In this document: positions 3,540 to 46,299 of the stretch, in pieces | Numbering within the stretch: the stretch's first letter is position 1 | Layout of the letters: each line of letters begins with the position of its first letter | DNA from: Variovorax sp. OAS795 | Lineage (GTDB): Bacteria; Pseudomonadota; Gammaproteobacteria; Burkholderiales; Burkholderiaceae_C | Direction: 5' to 3' | Length of the DNA stretch: 64,000 bases | NCBI RefSeq assembly: GCF_040546685.1 | Contig: NZ_JBEPOH010000001.1 | Location: 434,001-498,000, forward strand | The notes under the pieces: model-generated | The model's input: only the letters and a program-made list of their open reading frames with translations | Database searches by the model: none | Told to the model about the DNA's origin: nothing | Program-made: the position numbers and the translations under genes

Positions 3540-4730
3540 TCAGTTCTTGGCTTCAGCCAGCGCATGGTGCACAAACACGAGCAATGCCGCGCCCGCCGCG
3601 ATGGCCCAGACTACGCACACCGGCAACATGCCAGAAGGAAGCGGAAGCGCCCATCCGATGGCAAGCACGCACCAGCGAGCTATTTCTGCTCGTACACCGA
3701 CCCAAGGCAGGCCGCTCGCATTCGAGTGCACTGTCAACACTCGGGAAGCTGCCTCTGCGGCACCACCCGCCAACAGAACTGCGAGTGCACGGGTCGCTCC
3801 AGCATAGGCTTCGCCCAAGCCCAGGTCTGGCCACACATTTGCGAGCGCCCACGCAACGGCAGCGACTCCCAGAAGCGAGACAAACAGAATGCTGGCGCCA
3901 GTCCGCAACGCCTGCGTATTTGGCCGCTCCATCCATCGGCGCCACAACAGTGGCGCCGCATAGCTGATCGGCGTCAATGGGATCTGAGCCAAGGTCATTG
4001 CCATCGTGAATTTGCCCAGTGCAGCCGCCCCCGCTCGCACGTCTACTTCGTGCTGCGTTGCCAAAATGGCGGCGGTCGAGAGCGCGGCTACCAACCAAGT
4101 TGCCATTCCATATCGCCCCAGCGTACGCCATCCCGCTTGGGAGTCCTGCGCGCTTCCTGGCGCGGCTGCCAAACGACGCCATGCAAGTGCGGCGACACCT
4201 CCGTACGCAAGGCCGAACAACGCGGTCCAGACTAGGTTCCACGGCGCTCCCGCCGCGAAGATCGCAAAGACACAGAAAACGCCCAATAGCACAAGCATTT
4301 GCGGCAGCGCTGTCAGTACGTTAAACCAGGCAACGCGCTCCCGCACCAACGAAAGCGCCCGCAACTGGCCATGCGCCACCGTCGCCGCAACAGCGGCTCC
4401 GCACGCTACGGCCAAGATCAAGCCTGCATTTCGATGGCGGATGAGGCCGTATGCAGTGCCGACCGCCAACGCAAGTACGACGCTACGTAGCGCCCAGCGC
4501 ATCGCCGTGCGCATGTCCAGGCCGCCTGACTTCACATAAAAAAACAGTGCCTGCGGCAGACCCAGCATCGCAAATGCAGCGACGAACTCTATTTCCGACT
4601 TGGTTTGACTGAAGCCACCCTGAACCTCTGGTCCCAAGACGATTCCGATTGCAAGCGTCGCCAGAAGCACCGACGCCGCACCTGCCCCCTGCAGCCCGAA
4701 CGACGACAGCAGTTGGCTCCGCAGAGTCAA
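3540..4730 (-). CDS. Oligosaccharide flippase-like membrane protein (Wzx/MOP type)
   Basis: A 396-residue integral membrane protein with about ten to twelve hydrophobic segments, including VLLATLAIGIVLGP, FVAAFAMLGLPQALFFYV and PVCVVWAIAAGAALLVFV. Layout, size and place between glycosyltransferase genes fit a Wzx-type flippase that moves the lipid-linked glycan to the periplasm. No sharp motif exists for this family, so the call rests on topology and context. I chose TTG at 4730 because TTGA overlaps the methyltransferase stop by four bases, matching other junctions in this operon. The longer frame up to 4871 gives a Ser/Arg-rich lead that is an out-of-frame reading of the methyltransferase gene. 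Confidence 0.7.
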   Translation of the reverse strand: MTLRSQLLSSFGLQGAGAASVLLATLAIGIVLGPEVQGGFSQTKSEIEFVAAFAMLGLPQALFFYVKSGGLDMRTAMRWALRSVVLALAVGTAYGLIRHRNAGLILAVACGAAVAATVAHGQLRALSLVRERVAWFNVLTALPQMLVLLGVFCVFAIFAAGAPWNLVWTALFGLAYGGVAALAWRRLAAAPGSAQDSQAGWRTLGRYGMATWLVAALSTAAILATQHEVDVRAGAAALGKFTMAMTLAQIPLTPISYAAPLLWRRWMERPNTQALRTGASILFVSLLGVAAVAWALANVWPDLGLGEAYAGATRALAVLLAGGAAEAASRVLTVHSNASGLPWVGVRAEIARWCVLAIGWALPLPSGMLPVCVVWAIAAGAALLVFVHHALAEAKN

Positions 4731-5575
4731 GACCCTCGCCCTTGATCGGCGACTACAAGAGGCTTCCGACGAGCAGCGACGAAGAGATTTGACGCGAGCA
4801 GCCGCCGACCGAACCACGGCATTGCAGACGCGGCTGCGAAAACTGCTTTCCGCAATACTTGCATCGGCCATGCGCCGGCAAAGGCAGCACCAAAGCGTTC
4901 ATACCTGAGCGCACGGCGTGCCTGTTCCGTGGGCGTTTCATGGACCCAGACCCGGGAGTAAGCGACGACCTCCAATCCGGCACGCTCGAACAACTCCAAA
5001 CCGTCTTCCAACGAATACTTCCGCAAATGCCCCGACACGTCCTCGGGACCGTAGCGACGCCTTCGATTGAGCCAGTTATCTTCCAAGGGAAGATTTACGA
5101 GCACAATTTGACCGAGGGTTGCGGCGTCTTGGAGAAACTCTCGATCGTCTGGCACATGTTCGAGGACATCGCTCATGATCACTGCATCGAAGAAGTCGCT
5201 GAGCGCAGCCGTGCGGAAATCGCCGCAGCGAAATTCGACCTGCGGGAAGCGCATCCGTGCACTCTCAACATTGGCACTGGAGATATCTATCCCGACTTTG
5301 CGTCCGCCCTCACCTACGGGCACGGCCGCTATCAGCTCCCCCGTAGCACACCCTATTTCAAGTACATCTCCAAACTTCTGCTCAGCCGGAACAAGGCGCA
5401 TCAGGTTCGGCAATTTGAATCGACGAACTTCAATATCGATCTGCGCCTGTTCATACGAACCCACCTGCCGACGCGCGACATATTCTGGATGTTCGTTGTA
5501 GAGCGCGGAGTAATCGATCGCCGAGGGCGACGATCGAATCCGAGTCACTGGGTCCTTGGACATATCGTCGCTCAT
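4727..5575 (-). CDS. SAM-dependent class I methyltransferase
   Basis: A 282-residue Rossmann-fold methyltransferase. The SAM-binding motif I reads VLEIGCATGELIAAV (about residues 70-85), followed by the acidic end of strand 2 in VGIDIS, and the post-II region AVIMSDVLEHVPDD. The fold resembles the UbiG/Methyltransf_11-23 type used on many small substrates; in this cluster a sugar or the growing glycan is the likely acceptor. The start at 5575 (MSDDMSK) gives an ATGA overlap with the aminotransferase stop. The longer frame to 5767 covers the aminotransferase gene and was rejected. Substrate unknown. Confidence 0.83.
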   Translation of the reverse strand: MSDDMSKDPVTRIRSSPSAIDYSALYNEHPEYVARRQVGSYEQAQIDIEVRRFKLPNLMRLVPAEQKFGDVLEIGCATGELIAAVPVGEGGRKVGIDISSANVESARMRFPQVEFRCGDFRTAALSDFFDAVIMSDVLEHVPDDREFLQDAATLGQIVLVNLPLEDNWLNRRRRYGPEDVSGHLRKYSLEDGLELFERAGLEVVAYSRVWVHETPTEQARRALRYERFGAAFAGAWPMQVLRKAVFAAASAMPWFGRRLLASNLFVAARRKPLVVADQGRGS

Positions 5576-6689
5576 CCGGTCCTCGCAGCGAGGGCTGAAG
5601 ATAGTGCGCGAACAACTCGATCTTGCTGTGGTTGCGTCAGGTCGGCGCTCATTGGCAGGCTTAGCACGCGCGTTCCTGCGAGGACACTCTGCGGGCAATC
5701 CGCTTTTGCGGCATGGTCCGCATATGCGGTCTGAAGGTGCACAGGCCTCGGGTAGTGCACGGCGCACGGAACGCCCTGTTTGGTAAGTGCTTTCTGGACC
5801 GCTTCGCGCCCCTCAATGAAGACCGTATATTGAGATCGCACGCAGCTGCGCTCATCTCGCACTTTCAGCAGTTCCACGCCAAGCGTTCCGGCCAGCAGCT
5901 CGTCGTAGCGTTTACCAATTGCGAATCGCTGGGCGAGCTCCCATTCAAAACGCTCCAACTTGGCCAACACTATCGCGCACTGCAATGTGTCCATTCGACC
6001 TCCCACACCCACGCGAGTATGTACATAGCGGGCGCTCTGCCCGTGTACACGTATCTCGCGGCACGCTTGCGCGAGCGCGTCGTCGCTTGTGAATATTGCA
6101 CCTCCGTCCCCATAACAACCCAACGGCTTGCTAGGGAAAAAACTGGTGCAACCGAAGGTGCTGAGATTGCAACTGCGCCGCCCCTTGTAAGTGGCCCCGA
6201 AGCTCTGCGCCGCGTCCTCGATCACGGCCAAGCCGTGTCGAGCGGCAATCGCGTTGATCTCGTCCATGTCCGCGCACTGTCCGTACAGGCTCACCGGCAT
6301 GATGGCGCGCGTTCGATCGGTGATCTTGTCCTCGATCAGGCTGGCGTCGATATTGCAGGTGTCGGCTTCGATGTCCACGAACACCGGCTTACCACCTAAC
6401 AGCACGATCATCTCGGCAGTGGCAGCAAAGGTGAATGGCGTGGTGATGACTTCATCACCCGGCTTCAACCCCATTGCCATCAACGAGATGAGCAGTGCTT
6501 CGGTCCCGCTTGCCACCGTGATGCAATGCCTGGCGCCGGTGAATGCGGCAAGCCTTTCCTCCAACTCTGCGACCTCCGGACCCATGATGTATTGGCCATG
6601 GTCGAGTACTCGCTGGATGCGCTCATCAATCTGGACTTTCAAAGCCCGGTACTGGGCTTTCAGGTCCACGAACTCCATCTTGTTGCCGC

Positions 6690-42758: not shown

Positions 42759-43688
42759 ATGCTCGACCTCAACGACATCGCCGTCTTTGTGCAGGTGGTG
42801 CGCCATGGCAGCTTTGCGGAGGCCGCGCGCCGGCTCGGGCTGCCGCCCAATACCGTGAGCCGGCGCGTGCAGCAGCTGGAAGCGCAGCTGGGCACGCGGT
42901 TGATGCAGCGCTCCACGCGCAAGCTCACGCTCACCAGCGCGGGCCAGGCCTTTCACGAGCGCTGCGCGGGCGCGGTCGACGGGCTGGTGGAGGCCGGGCA
43001 GGAGCTGATCACCGGCAGCCGCGAACCCAGCGGCCTGGTGCGCGTGGCGGCCACGGCCGACTTCTTCGATTTCTTCCCGATGGAATGGGTCGCCGACTTC
43101 CTGGCCGCGCATCCGCTGGTGCGCGTCGACTTCGTGCTCAGCGATGCCAAGGCCGACCTGATCGCCGAGCAGATCGACGTCGCCTTCCGCGGCGGCGCGC
43201 TGCCCGACTCGGGCTATGTCGGCCGCAAGCTCATGAGCGTTCGCACCGACGGCATGGTGGCGAGCCCCGCCTACATCGCCGCGCGCGGCGCGCCGGCCAG
43301 CTTGCAGGATCTGGCGAACCACGACTGCGTCACCGCGGCCCATCCGAGCGGCCGCACCGTCTGGCGCCTGGTGGGCCCCGGCGGCGCGGAAGAAGAAGTG
43401 CAGGTGAGCGGCCGCTTCACCGGCAACACCGCGCAGGCGCTGCGCAAGGCCGCGCTCGCCGGCCTGGGCGTCGCGCTGCTGCCGCCCACCATGGCCCGGC
43501 TCGACCTGGAAGCCGGCCGGCTCGTGCCGGTGCTGCCGCGCTACCAGCGCACCGGGCAGGGGCTGAGCGTGCTGTACCCGAGCCGCAAGCACCTGCCGCT
43601 CGCGGTGTCGGCGTTCATCGGCATGGTGATGGAGAAGCTGAGCGGGGTGGAGGGGCTACTTGAGATAGGGCAGTTGGGACGGAGCTAG
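42759..43688 (+). CDS. LysR-family transcriptional regulator
   Basis: A 309-residue LTTR. The helix-turn-helix is at residues 2-60 (DLNDIAVFVQVVRHGSFAEAARRLGLPPNTVSRRVQQLEAQLGTRLMQRSTR pattern), followed by the effector-binding domain with two alpha/beta halves. It is divergent from the pirin gene by 187 bases, the usual layout for regulator and target. Its stop at 43688 is the last conserved base before the AT-rich defence segment. Confidence 0.94.
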   Translation: MLDLNDIAVFVQVVRHGSFAEAARRLGLPPNTVSRRVQQLEAQLGTRLMQRSTRKLTLTSAGQAFHERCAGAVDGLVEAGQELITGSREPSGLVRVAATADFFDFFPMEWVADFLAAHPLVRVDFVLSDAKADLIAEQIDVAFRGGALPDSGYVGRKLMSVRTDGMVASPAYIAARGAPASLQDLANHDCVTAAHPSGRTVWRLVGPGGAEEEVQVSGRFTGNTAQALRKAALAGLGVALLPPTMARLDLEAGRLVPVLPRYQRTGQGLSVLYPSRKHLPLAVSAFIGMVMEKLSGVEGLLEIGQLGRS

Positions 43689-44006
43689 CAAAGTTGTTTT
43701 TTGATCAAACAGCGCGGCTAGTGTCTTTTCAAGGTGCTTACGGGATGCGGACTGAGCCGAAATCATTTACAAAGAGATGCTTTTGAATCGTTCCGACGGT
43801 GTTGGGCGCCGGCAGCCTTCCCACGATCCATCTTTTTGGCGCCAAGCGAGAGGCGCCTCGCAAAAAGCTCGACGACTCACATCGTACATATCAATTTTAT
43901 ACGTTCTACAGATGGAAAAATCGAGTTCAAGAGTCACCCCACGTAAAACCACGCGAAAACGCCTGCCTCTGGAACCAGAAAGCCCAGAATAGAACTAGTT
44001 TTTGGC
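43689..44006 (+). other. AT-rich leader of the deaminase gene, possible AvcI-like RNA region
   Basis: About 318 bases without a normal gene. A folded element lies at 43833-43866: TTTTTG-GCGCC, eight-base loop, GGCGC, a four-base bulge, CAAAAA. An ATG at 43912 opens a 26-codon frame (MEKSSSRVTPRK...) that ends in TAG at 43990, one base out of frame with the deaminase. In Vibrio, avcD is preceded by the inhibitory RNA AvcI; a similar RNA could lie here, but sequence similarity was not tested. Confidence 0.35.
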
Positions 44007-45488
44007 TTGGTGGGACCGACGGGGGTCGACTTGACCAAAGTTTATGAAAGCTTGCGGAGCCAACTTAAGAGTGTTAATTACCAAGCGCATCTCGTAAAAC
44101 TGAGCGATCTTATCGACCCCTATCTAAAGGGAAAGAAAGTTAACGCTTCCAGCGAATACGACAGAATTAGAAACTTAATGGAAAGCGGAACTCGGTTACG
44201 AGAAAAGACTGATCAACGCGACATCGTCGCGCGACTAGGAATTGCGCGAATCAAAGCAATACGCACAGAAAAAGCGGGCACATCAAACAAGCCTTTGCCA
44301 CGGACAGCATACATCGTAAGTTCATTCAAACGACCAGAAGAGGTGGAGTTATATAGGCAGGCTTATGGAAAAGCCTTCTGCTTAATTTCAGTTTATGCGC
44401 CAAGACAGTCTCGAGTAAAAGATTTGGCGCGACGCCTGCGATCATCCGTGGGAAAAAGCACGTCAACCGCGGAGGAAATGGCGGTCCAACTAGTCTCTCG
44501 CGACTTTGAAGAAGAAGCCCGTAAATCCGGGCAACGAGTTGGAAAAACTTTTCCGCTTGCAGACTATTTTGTTAGCGCCGAGTCACGGTCCAAATTAGAT
44601 GAGAATCTGCTGAGGCTCGTGCGCCTAAGCTTCGGACACCCGTATATATCACCTACACGTGATGAACAAGGAATGTTCTACGCACAGGCGTCGGCGATGC
44701 GCTCCTTAGATCTCTCGCGTCAAGTGGGAGCCGCCATCACCGATTCGGACGGATCTGTGCTCGCTACTGGTTGCAATGAAGTACCAAAATTTGGCGGCGG
44801 CCTCTATTGGGGGGAAGATGACTTTGTAGCTAGAGACTTTGAGCTTGGAAACGATTCCAACGTAAAAATCAAGTCCGAAATTGTGGAGGACGTACTTTCA
44901 CGACTGCGTCAAAAAGGTTGGCTTCACCACAGCTTAAAGAAAAATAGCAACAAGGATCTAGCAGACACTTCACTTTTTCAAGGCGACGCTTTTCTCAAGA
45001 ATTCCTTGATATTTGATGTCATTGAATTCGGCCGGGCCGTTCACGCAGAGGCTGCATCTATTACCGACGCGGCCAGAAGAGGGGTTCAAATTGGAGGCGC
45101 CAAACTTTTTTGCACTACTTTCCCGTGTCACATTTGTGCACGCCATATTACGGCAAGCGGAATCAAGGAAGTCGTCTTTATCGAACCGTACGAAAAAAGC
45201 CGCACTGCAGAACTCTATTCAGATTCAATCAGCATTGAACCCCAGGAATTGTCAGGCAATAGGGCGAATTTTCGTGCTTTTGTTGGGGTAGCGCCGCGGA
45301 GTTTCATGGATTTCTTTCAGATGAACAGGAACCGGAAATCATCCAAAGGAGATGTACTTGATATTGATGCGATCTCAGAAAATCCAAGGATTAAAAGAAT
45401 TGTTTTGACTTATCTGATGATCGAGGATATTATAGTTAATGAAACACGCACCACCCCAGGAGTAGACCAATGGACGAAAAATCAGTAA
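44007..45488 (+). CDS. AvcD-type anti-phage dCTP/dCMP deaminase
   Basis: The protein has an N-terminal P-loop kinase-like domain (LVFGLVGPTGVDL) and a C-terminal zinc deaminase domain: His346 and Glu348 in GRAVHAEAAS, and Cys374 and Cys377 in FPCHICARH (numbered from TTG 44007). This layout is that of anti-phage dCTP deaminases (AvcD), which drain dCTP during infection. The N-terminus is odd. TTG 44007 cuts off the first strand, residues RIELVFG encoded just upstream, and no ATG, GTG or TTG lies between the in-frame stop at 43944 and 44007. An ATG at 43912 is in another frame. The segment is AT-richer than its neighbours, with different codon use, so it was probably acquired. Confidence 0.85.
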   Translation: MVGPTGVDLTKVYESLRSQLKSVNYQAHLVKLSDLIDPYLKGKKVNASSEYDRIRNLMESGTRLREKTDQRDIVARLGIARIKAIRTEKAGTSNKPLPRTAYIVSSFKRPEEVELYRQAYGKAFCLISVYAPRQSRVKDLARRLRSSVGKSTSTAEEMAVQLVSRDFEEEARKSGQRVGKTFPLADYFVSAESRSKLDENLLRLVRLSFGHPYISPTRDEQGMFYAQASAMRSLDLSRQVGAAITDSDGSVLATGCNEVPKFGGGLYWGEDDFVARDFELGNDSNVKIKSEIVEDVLSRLRQKGWLHHSLKKNSNKDLADTSLFQGDAFLKNSLIFDVIEFGRAVHAEAASITDAARRGVQIGGAKLFCTTFPCHICARHITASGIKEVVFIEPYEKSRTAELYSDSISIEPQELSGNRANFRAFVGVAPRSFMDFFQMNRNRKSSKGDVLDIDAISENPRIKRIVLTYLMIEDIIVNETRTTPGVDQWTKNQ

Positions 45489-45649
45489 AGGTCTTTTTGG
45501 ATCAATTTTCGGAGTCACACAAGCGCGTTCAACAGTGGCCCGAATGGATGCGGCAATCAACGCGAGTCGATGCTGCGTATTTTCCTCGTACGCAGAAATC
45601 CAATCCCGTGCAAGTTACTAACAAGGTACTGGCGCTGCCCAAAAAATAG
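45470..45649 (+). CDS. Small WPEWM-motif protein overlapping the deaminase gene
   Basis: A 59-residue protein, MDEKSVKVFLDQFSESHKRVQQWPEWMRQ then STRVDAAYFPRTQKSNP, ending LALPKK. Its ATG at 45470 has a strong AGGAG at 45458-45462, seven bases away, and it overlaps the deaminase by 19 bases, so the two are one transcription unit. The amphipathic helix ending in QWPEWM recalls short proteins seen beside defence and prophage genes. Function unknown; a partner, inhibitor or accessory of the deaminase are all possible. Confidence 0.72.
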   Translation: MDEKSVKVFLDQFSESHKRVQQWPEWMRQSTRVDAAYFPRTQKSNPVQVTNKVLALPKK

Positions 45650-45822
45650 TCAGCATTTTTCCGACATTGGTCGGGCTTATTGGCCGTACGTGCGGTACTG
45701 CCAAAGCGAAGCTTTAGCATTGCTTGGCATCCGCCGGCGCGATGGACCTTATTGCTGGACATTGTCGTTAGGATTTCCTTTCCGTCGGCGTTTGTTGGCT
45801 CACGGTTGCGGGACAATGCCGC

Positions 45823-46299
45823 ATGAAAATCGAAAAAGACACCGTCGTCACGCTGAAGTACAAGGTCGCCGACGCGCAGGGCAAGCTCATCGAAGCCAGC
45901 CCCGAGCCCATGGCCTACCTGCATGGCGGGTACGAGAACACGCTGCCCAAGATCGAGGAAGCGCTGGACGGCAAGGAAGCGGGCTTCCAGACCACGCTGC
46001 ACCTGGCGCCTGAAGACGCCTTCGGCCTGCGCGACGAGTCGCTGGTGCGCAGCATTCCGAAGGCTGACTTTCCGCCGGGCGTGAAGGTCGGCGGGCAACT
46101 GGAAGGGCGGCTCGACGATGGCCGCCAGCACCTCTTCACCGTGATGAAGATCAAGGGCCCGGTCGTGCTGCTCGATGGCAACCATCCGTGGGCAGGCAAG
46201 GCGCTGCGCTTCAGCCTGCAGGTGACGGACGTGCGCGCGGCGCTGCCGGTGGAGATCGAGCATCGGCATGTGCATGGGGCGCACGGGCACCATCACTGA
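45823..46299 (+). CDS. slyD: FKBP-type peptidyl-prolyl isomerase, SlyD-like
   Basis: A 158-residue SlyD homologue. Seen: VVTLKYKVADAQGKLIEAS, YLHGGYENTLPKIEEALDGKEAG, the chaperone IF-domain insertion (LAPEDAFGLRDESLVRSIPKADFPPGVKVGG), and a His-rich C-terminus HRHVHGAHGHHH that would bind nickel. It folds proline-limited proteins and stores metal. The GC-rich codon use of the chromosome resumes here. Confidence 0.93.
   Translation: MKIEKDTVVTLKYKVADAQGKLIEASPEPMAYLHGGYENTLPKIEEALDGKEAGFQTTLHLAPEDAFGLRDESLVRSIPKADFPPGVKVGGQLEGRLDDGRQHLFTVMKIKGPVVLLDGNHPWAGKALRFSLQVTDVRAALPVEIEHRHVHGAHGHHH

Follow-up and report, generated by a model that had tools for sequence, protein, structure and literature searches.

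The long open frame described here encodes, on profile evidence, an anti-phage dCTP deaminase of the AvcD type, and the 59-residue gene that overlaps its end is a recurrent partner of this deaminase in diverse bacteria and on viral contigs. Both genes lie in the window, the 64,000-nucleotide stretch of the Variovorax sp. OAS795 genome that was analysed. We propose, with a probability that we put at roughly 0.45, that they make up a variant AvcD system with two genes, in which the small protein would bind the deaminase and keep it off until infection.

An AvcD-type deaminase with a disturbed start

The deaminase occupies a frame of 513 codons on the forward strand (positions 43947-45488 of the window), the first canonical start of which is a TTG at 44007. 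Read from this TTG, the product matches the NCBIfam model for anti-phage dCTP deaminases (NF041025) with 454.9 bits against a cut-off of 400, over positions 6-437 of a profile of 437, and it matches the PADLOC dCTPase model with an E-value of 6.8e-158. A previous sequence-only reading of this DNA had assigned the gene to this family and called for comparison with anti-phage dCTP deaminases, and its assignment proved correct. The complete HAE and PCxxC sites that it described are likewise present, the former as the HAE zinc/catalytic motif at 45042-45050 and the latter as the zinc motif PCHIC at 45123-45137, both on the forward strand (residues 366-368 and 393-397 of P0001, respectively) and both conserved in every row of two alignments (32 and 42 rows). 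Among the matches listed the closest named protein is from Variovorax boronicumulans (P0004), and a related locus is found in Ramlibacter (L032). The deaminase is present in a single copy in the genome, which comprises 6.09 Mb on two contigs.

The start of the gene appears to be disturbed. The deaminase frame opens 42 bases before the residues IELVFG with no ATG, GTG or TTG in between, and TTG 44007 falls within the conserved IELVFGLVGPTG stretch, whereas at least 11 residues precede this stretch in 109 of 120 homologues among the matches listed of 4205; in the remaining 11, which include P0003, the conserved stretch was missed by the motif that was used. Among the matches listed, the only entry for the protein of the window is a reading of 492 residues whose first residue falls within IELVFGLVGPTG (P0003). 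Because the listed homologues begin so much earlier, what the sequence-only reading called an odd start looks more like a frame disturbance in the linker, which is the simplest reading, than like an unusual start codon. A 26-codon ORF in another frame of the same strand (ATG at 43912 to stop at 43992) is likely to be the displaced N-terminal linker; it encodes a basic linker ending in LPLEPESP, similar to RSPLEADGP, found ahead of IELVFG in P0008 (four of eight positions identical, by eye). The sequence of the nucleotide-kinase-like N-terminal domain lies in the open frame, yet the N-terminus of the P-loop protein of the sequence-only reading is incomplete as annotated, with an in-frame canonical start absent before IELVFG. 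The disturbance may stem from a true mutation, recoding, initiation at a non-canonical codon or an error of assembly; a slippery heptamer of the sort used in programmed frameshifting was not seen by eye.

We give even odds to the explanation that the copy in the window is in decay or has lost its N-terminal end and that the locus is inactive in this genome, an explanation that is compatible with all of the others considered below. It would account for the lack of a canonical start before IELVFGLVGPTG, and several relatives are broken as well, for example through an internal stop (L032), an in-frame stop in the linker (L008), or stops together with a split reading (L162/L167), so that damage is not rare in this family. 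Against it, 513 codons remain open with the active sites intact, and the assembly might be in error, or recoding or a start at a non-canonical codon might be at work instead. The P0003 cluster moreover has four members on three contigs, although clusters were built at 90% identity and its members need not therefore share the disturbance. When L171 is counted with L032, L008 and L162/L167, the interruptions among relatives of the deaminase take the form of an internal stop, a linker stop, a split reading or a split annotation, and they suggest frequent loss in the family; intact homologues also exist, for example in Rhizobacter sp. OV335 (L033), where the deaminase is at 3923-5512 and the small gene at 5516-5698.

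A small gene recurs at the deaminase stop

The 59-residue gene (45470-45649, forward strand) overlaps the deaminase by 19 bases and is preceded by the ribosome-binding site AGGAG at 45458-45462, seven bases upstream of its ATG; the overlap and the AGGAG had been described from the sequence alone. Its product, with the core FLDQF...V..WPEWM, belongs to what we term class I, defined as ORFs of 48-80 residues that start near the deaminase stop and carry an amphipathic core ending in W-P-x-W or in a degenerate form of it. In leave-one-out scoring the ORF of the window reaches 52.5 bits (E 1.6e-15), above all 416 control ORFs.

Recurrence was counted over 78 non-redundant deaminase loci, which are what is left of 96 once 17 near-copies and one short fragment are removed; copies of the window (L001, L043 and L093) and matches to the zinc domain alone (L017-L031) stayed outside the counts. 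A strict WPxW ORF starting between -31 and +18 bases from the deaminase stop is found at 14 of the 78 loci. The same strict scan over all collected DNA, which covered 1463 ends of ORFs of at least 150 codons with deaminases included, gave 20 matches, and the five of these that are not at a deaminase look unlike the family. Many deaminase loci without the strict motif carry a recognisably related ORF at the same position, and a class I profile was accordingly seeded with the 14 strict ORFs and iterated. This profile recruits an ORF at the end of the deaminase in 28 of the 78 loci and none of the 416 control small ORFs, which come from 865 ends of control ORFs. When every member in turn is left out together with its close relatives, all 28 still outscore every control, the weakest being L037 (E 0.0079) and L016 (E 0.0057). 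The recurrent WPEWM-type gene that the sequence-only reading had suggested looking for is thus encountered well beyond near relatives, in Burkholderiales, a Vibrio plasmid, a P4-like element of E. coli, Planctomycetota and viral contigs.

These ORFs have coding character. In 24 of the 28 class I genes a start follows a Shine-Dalgarno core, as compared to 62 of 417 control ORFs, and when the longest start is taken 12 of the 28 overlap the stop in the ATGA/GTGA manner (-3). All 11 small-gene pairs that were compared (nine of class I and two of class II, described below) are most changed at third codon positions and have pN below pS; for example, the window and L040 give 29/22/38. In each of the nine pairs for which both genes were comparable, pN is higher for the small gene than for the deaminase, the deaminase figures for the window/L032 and L160/L162 pairs having been set aside because broken copies misalign. 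The aligned class I core is hydrophobic at positions 9, 10, 13, 20 and 23 (93-100%) and never so at positions 17, 22 and 24 (0%), a spacing that fits a predicted amphipathic helix closed by W-P. Searches of Pfam, NCBIfam, PADLOC and PHROGs yielded no credible family for the small protein, the best E-value in a PDB sequence search was 1.6, and a search for fusions of class I or class II to the C-termini of deaminases gave nothing below E 0.1. A villin-headpiece identity was indicated weakly in two of 14 members (best E 0.0014) and is not claimed.

Distribution of the small gene across the deaminase tree

In a maximum-likelihood tree of the 78 deaminases, class I genes accompany all 16 members of the clade to which the window belongs (branch 94/91, with an inner group of ten at 100/100). 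A second class I set extends over the Vibrio plasmid, the satellite-like element of E. coli, Planctomycetota and viral contigs, and two further rows are scattered. Part of a separate clade has a different small ORF, class II, at or near the deaminase stop (12 loci: L002, L003, L009, L011, L014, L098, L100, L101, L116, L150, L165 and L166); all 12 score above every control in leave-one-out, but with weak E-values, the worst being 0.85. Among the 40 rows with either class, the 38 with neither being left out, classes I and II lie on opposite sides of a branch with support of 100/98.

Neither class is found at 38 of the 78 loci, among them a clade of 18 rows. The clade that contains the deaminase of an ETEC plasmid has neither class, and a downstream gene of class I or II is absent from the ETEC plasmid p58 (L115), from Klebsiella (L117) and from L112-L114.

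The association is particularly illustrated by E. coli, where, among 5426 complete genomes, the small gene was found in 12 and a closely matching deaminase in 12, and these are the same 12 records; at that sensitivity no free copy of the small gene without the deaminase was found in these genomes. At the two E. coli loci inspected the small gene, annotated as a hypothetical protein, has a phage polarity suppression gene on one side and an integrase next to tRNA-Sec on the other. A second deaminase type is present in 18 further E. coli genomes (a match of about 69% over 38% of the gene), and the one locus of this type that was inspected, L170, has no small ORF. By eye, the deaminase of L170 (1015-2784) has an extra N-terminal region similar to that of a planctomycetotal deaminase (L039, from 3623) that is accompanied by a small gene.

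A proposed two-gene system

Going by its family, the deaminase (dCTP/dCMP) would drain deoxycytidine nucleotides during phage infection. We propose that the small protein, which has an amphipathic core and a variable tail and is probably translated by coupling from the deaminase stop, would bind the deaminase and hold it inactive before infection, and that, as a labile inhibitor, it would be lost once the phage shuts down host expression. It would thereby do the job that is done in the characterised clade by the RNA AvcI, which according to PMC10511110 binds and inhibits AvcD and is lost when transcription is shut off. Inhibition is preferred because of this parallel and because the tail is variable and, by eye, disordered-looking. 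The two-gene reading is supported by the identity of the deaminase, by the contrast between 28 of 78 deaminase loci and none of 416 controls, by the unbroken 16 of 16 in one clade, by the coincidence of both genes in the same 12 E. coli records, by the Shine-Dalgarno cores at 24 of 28 genes and by pN being below pS. It is weakened by the occurrence of WPxWK elsewhere (see below), by the 38 of 78 loci with neither class and by the higher pN of the small gene in nine of nine pairs. Antitoxins usually precede their toxins, and the downstream position of the small gene therefore counts against an inhibitor. In addition, the unit may be impaired in this particular genome, since the deaminase start is disturbed.

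Several known systems bear comparison. AvcID of Vibrio and ETEC, as described in PMC10511110, has a deaminase of the same family with HAE and PCxxC sites and is governed by an upstream RNA, AvcI, whereas the window has a downstream small-protein gene instead of, or besides, an RNA. The same paper counts ETEC AvcID among the characterised RNA-antitoxin systems; p58 may be the copy tested there, and the clade of the p58 deaminase differs from the window in having no downstream gene of class I or II. The window also reaches the NCBIfam cut-off for a single-gene anti-phage dCTP deaminase (NF041025; PADLOC dCTPase), but these models cover the deaminase, and its small partner is without a credible curated family match. 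In Clover, the dGTPase CloA is held off by a nucleotide signal from CloB (PMC12265719), so that a nucleotide-depleting effector is paired there with a partner that restrains it, as is proposed here; the partner in Clover, however, is an enzyme that makes an inhibitory nucleotide, while here it would be a protein of roughly 60 residues. A protein partner of the deaminase is not mentioned in the available portions of the literature searched, which included PMC10511110, PMC12409362, PMC10121019, PMC12265719 and PMC9690074; the two founding papers of 2022 lie outside that scope, and we therefore do not call the small gene unreported.

In the libraries searched the deaminase is modelled by itself, and what has been characterised is a gene together with an RNA. 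If about half of these deaminases do have a conserved protein partner, experiments in heterologous hosts that used only the deaminase may have missed a control element. Should the proposal be true, the off-state of these enzymes in uninfected cells would be directly testable with intact homologues, and there would be a protein handle on activation as well as a candidate phage counter-defence.

The main rival to an inhibitor is that the small protein serves as a required subunit, an activator or an infection sensor of the deaminase, with class II (QLEL-type) perhaps sensing the replisome via the beta clamp. We consider this somewhat unlikely. The presence of the small gene in 16 of 16 members of the clade is in keeping with it, and the motif Q[LMI][EDS][LIF] is found within 45 residues of the N-terminus in 12 of 12 class II proteins versus 3 of 416 controls, a count that is circular because 10 of the 12 were seeded by that motif. 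The class II motif resembles the beta-clamp-binding consensus QL(S/D)LF given in a review (PMC9690074). However, class I has no such clamp-like motif, and the same review places clamp motifs at the C-terminus whereas that of class II is N-terminal. The inhibitor reading is the one preferred here, with a sensor or subunit as its principal competitor.

WPxWK proteins outside of deaminase loci

Stand-alone relatives of the class I core were identified in phages of Xanthomonas and Pectobacterium, namely XbC2_73 (37 residues, 26.9 bits) and phiTE_068, which equals CB5_09 (92 residues, 16.7 bits). The WPxWK proteins of these Pectobacterium and Xanthomonas phages are located at L172 639-917, L173 639-917 and L174 495-608, and no deaminase is among the adjoining features shown for XbC2_73, phiTE_068 and CB5_09. 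A further phage, Peat1, gave this match too. Although phiTE and CB5 are phages from different groups, their proteins are identical.

The pattern VA[ST]WPxWK was also found in 77 viral-contig stretches (L175-L251), and tblastn revealed a deaminase in none of them. From these stretches 70 ORFs were read, matches without a start codon being skipped, and 33 of the 69 ORFs listed match the class I profile with E < 1e-3, some of them inside larger proteins and all with scores inflated by a search pattern that itself contains the motif. The pattern is scattered over both small and larger proteins, the longest running to several hundred residues, and the motif is therefore wider than deaminase systems. 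For 20 of these viral loci the 71 neighbouring ORFs include HNH and homing endonucleases, polynucleotide kinase, helicases, DNA methylases and one match to ribonucleotide reductase, with no single recurrent partner. A protein-database search with the small-gene profile returned 41 proteins at E-values up to 1, including some from Vibrio, Klebsiella and Pseudomonas. Among plasmids, the small protein of the window had no match at E 1, and searches with P0132 and P0148 recovered the deaminase plasmids of Vibrio nigripulchritudo along with a few weak matches in other genes; a scan of viral contigs with P0148 gave no confirmed relative.

The viral WPxWK proteins may be phage mimics of the inhibitor, or they may belong to a broader module. 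The most far-reaching version of our proposal would join two statements: that 40 of the 78 sampled AvcD-type deaminases, about half, belong to two-gene systems where the RNA antitoxin is replaced by a downstream protein of class I or II, and that the stand-alone WPxWK proteins of phages such as XbC2 of Xanthomonas and phiTE and CB5 of Pectobacterium mimic the inhibitor and disarm the defence. We regard this conjunction as unlikely. Still less probable, in our estimate, is that the small gene is independent of the deaminase, for example as a general phage or mobile-element module travelling in its operon. The stand-alone phage relatives, the many viral contigs, the mixed neighbours at the 20 viral loci and the 41 database matches all point that way. 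Yet hitch-hiking can hardly explain why the gene keeps its place at the deaminase stop across deep divergence and is present in 16 of 16 members of one clade. In addition, 275 other sampled genomes of the class gave no match to the small gene at E 1e-4 with at most 27 candidates scored per genome, in a search that was insensitive, the degenerate copy of G783 (L105) having escaped it.

The leader region

The sequence-only reading had proposed a three-part unit of leader RNA, deaminase and small protein. The latter two parts are those that stand, while the leader RNA is unsupported, though not refuted. The leader comprises 223 bases on the forward strand (43689-43911), from the LysR stop up to the ATG with which the N-terminal fragment begins. 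The structured element described in a leader of 318 bases is not evident, as positions 43689-43946 fold at chance (z -0.15, with 85 of 200 shuffles at least as stable), in a test that gave z -0.09 for the leader of the ETEC AvcD, its positive control. Because this control was missed, folding cannot serve as a test for an AvcI-like RNA, which the region could still encode. Of 18 leaders folded, two were clearly more stable than their shuffles, those of L033 in the clade of the window (z -2.29) and of L114 in the RNA clade (z -3.44). No Rfam family reached its cut-off on 43600-45850, where the only match, a sub-threshold one to SNORD52, falls inside the gene, and a promoter and terminator scan found no sigma-70-type promoter-like site in the leader. 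Similarly, blastn detected nothing significant shared among the upstream regions of ten clade members, and the best pair (L015/L040, E 0.053) overlaps what appears by eye to be the end of a tRNA.

That the leader encodes an RNA antitoxin, as in AvcID, with the small protein secondary, we judge very improbable: the AvcI precedent, a leader longer than the roughly 171-base minimal AvcI and the two stable leaders of L033 and L114 favour it, but they are set against the lack of significant similarity among ten upstream regions, the lack of a promoter-like site and a z near zero in the window, this last being a weak point given the ETEC result.

Genomic setting of the insert

Both genes, the 513-codon open frame and the 59-residue ORF, are the contents of an AT-rich insert of about 2.1 kb, with approximate ends at 43667 and 45802 as drawn from blastn similarity and GC, between flanks that are conserved in the genus. 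To its left is a LysR-type regulator (42759-43688) and to its right an FKBP-like gene (45823-46299), the Pfam match of which is below the curated cut-off. In same-genus genomes the similarity extends no further than base 908 of the 930-base LysR gene and is found again from about 20 bases ahead of the FKBP-like start. The GC content is 44-50% in the body of the insert versus about 59-75% in the flanks, in agreement with the lower GC that the sequence-only reading had pointed out. None of the direct repeats found joins both ends of the insert, and by eye no integrase-like ORF was seen in its ORF list. An imperfect 18-base inverted repeat (45465-45482 and 45655-45672, 83%) brackets the small gene and is probably due to chance, as about one such pair is expected per 2.2 kb by a rough hand estimate.

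The intergenic site between LysR and FKBP is a cargo hotspot in this genus, where defence genes are swapped. Each of the 101 genomes of the genus that were searched has a match to part of a LysR-to-FKBP query, and 20 sites were read, chosen from the matches for short or long gaps, so that the proportions of cargo that follow are not those of a sample. Five of the 20 are uninterrupted (G377, G329, G337, G302 and G303), with 59-72 bases from the end of the LysR match to the FKBP start. Defence-type cargo is present at another five, namely DRT3 (G324), DRT8 with RTasPDDEXK (G325), a NACHT protein (G318), NERD-UvrD (G341) and RhuM/PDC-S05 (G384). Unclassified genes occupy five sites, and five carry a high-GC segment of 5 kb with what by eye are possibly transport genes.
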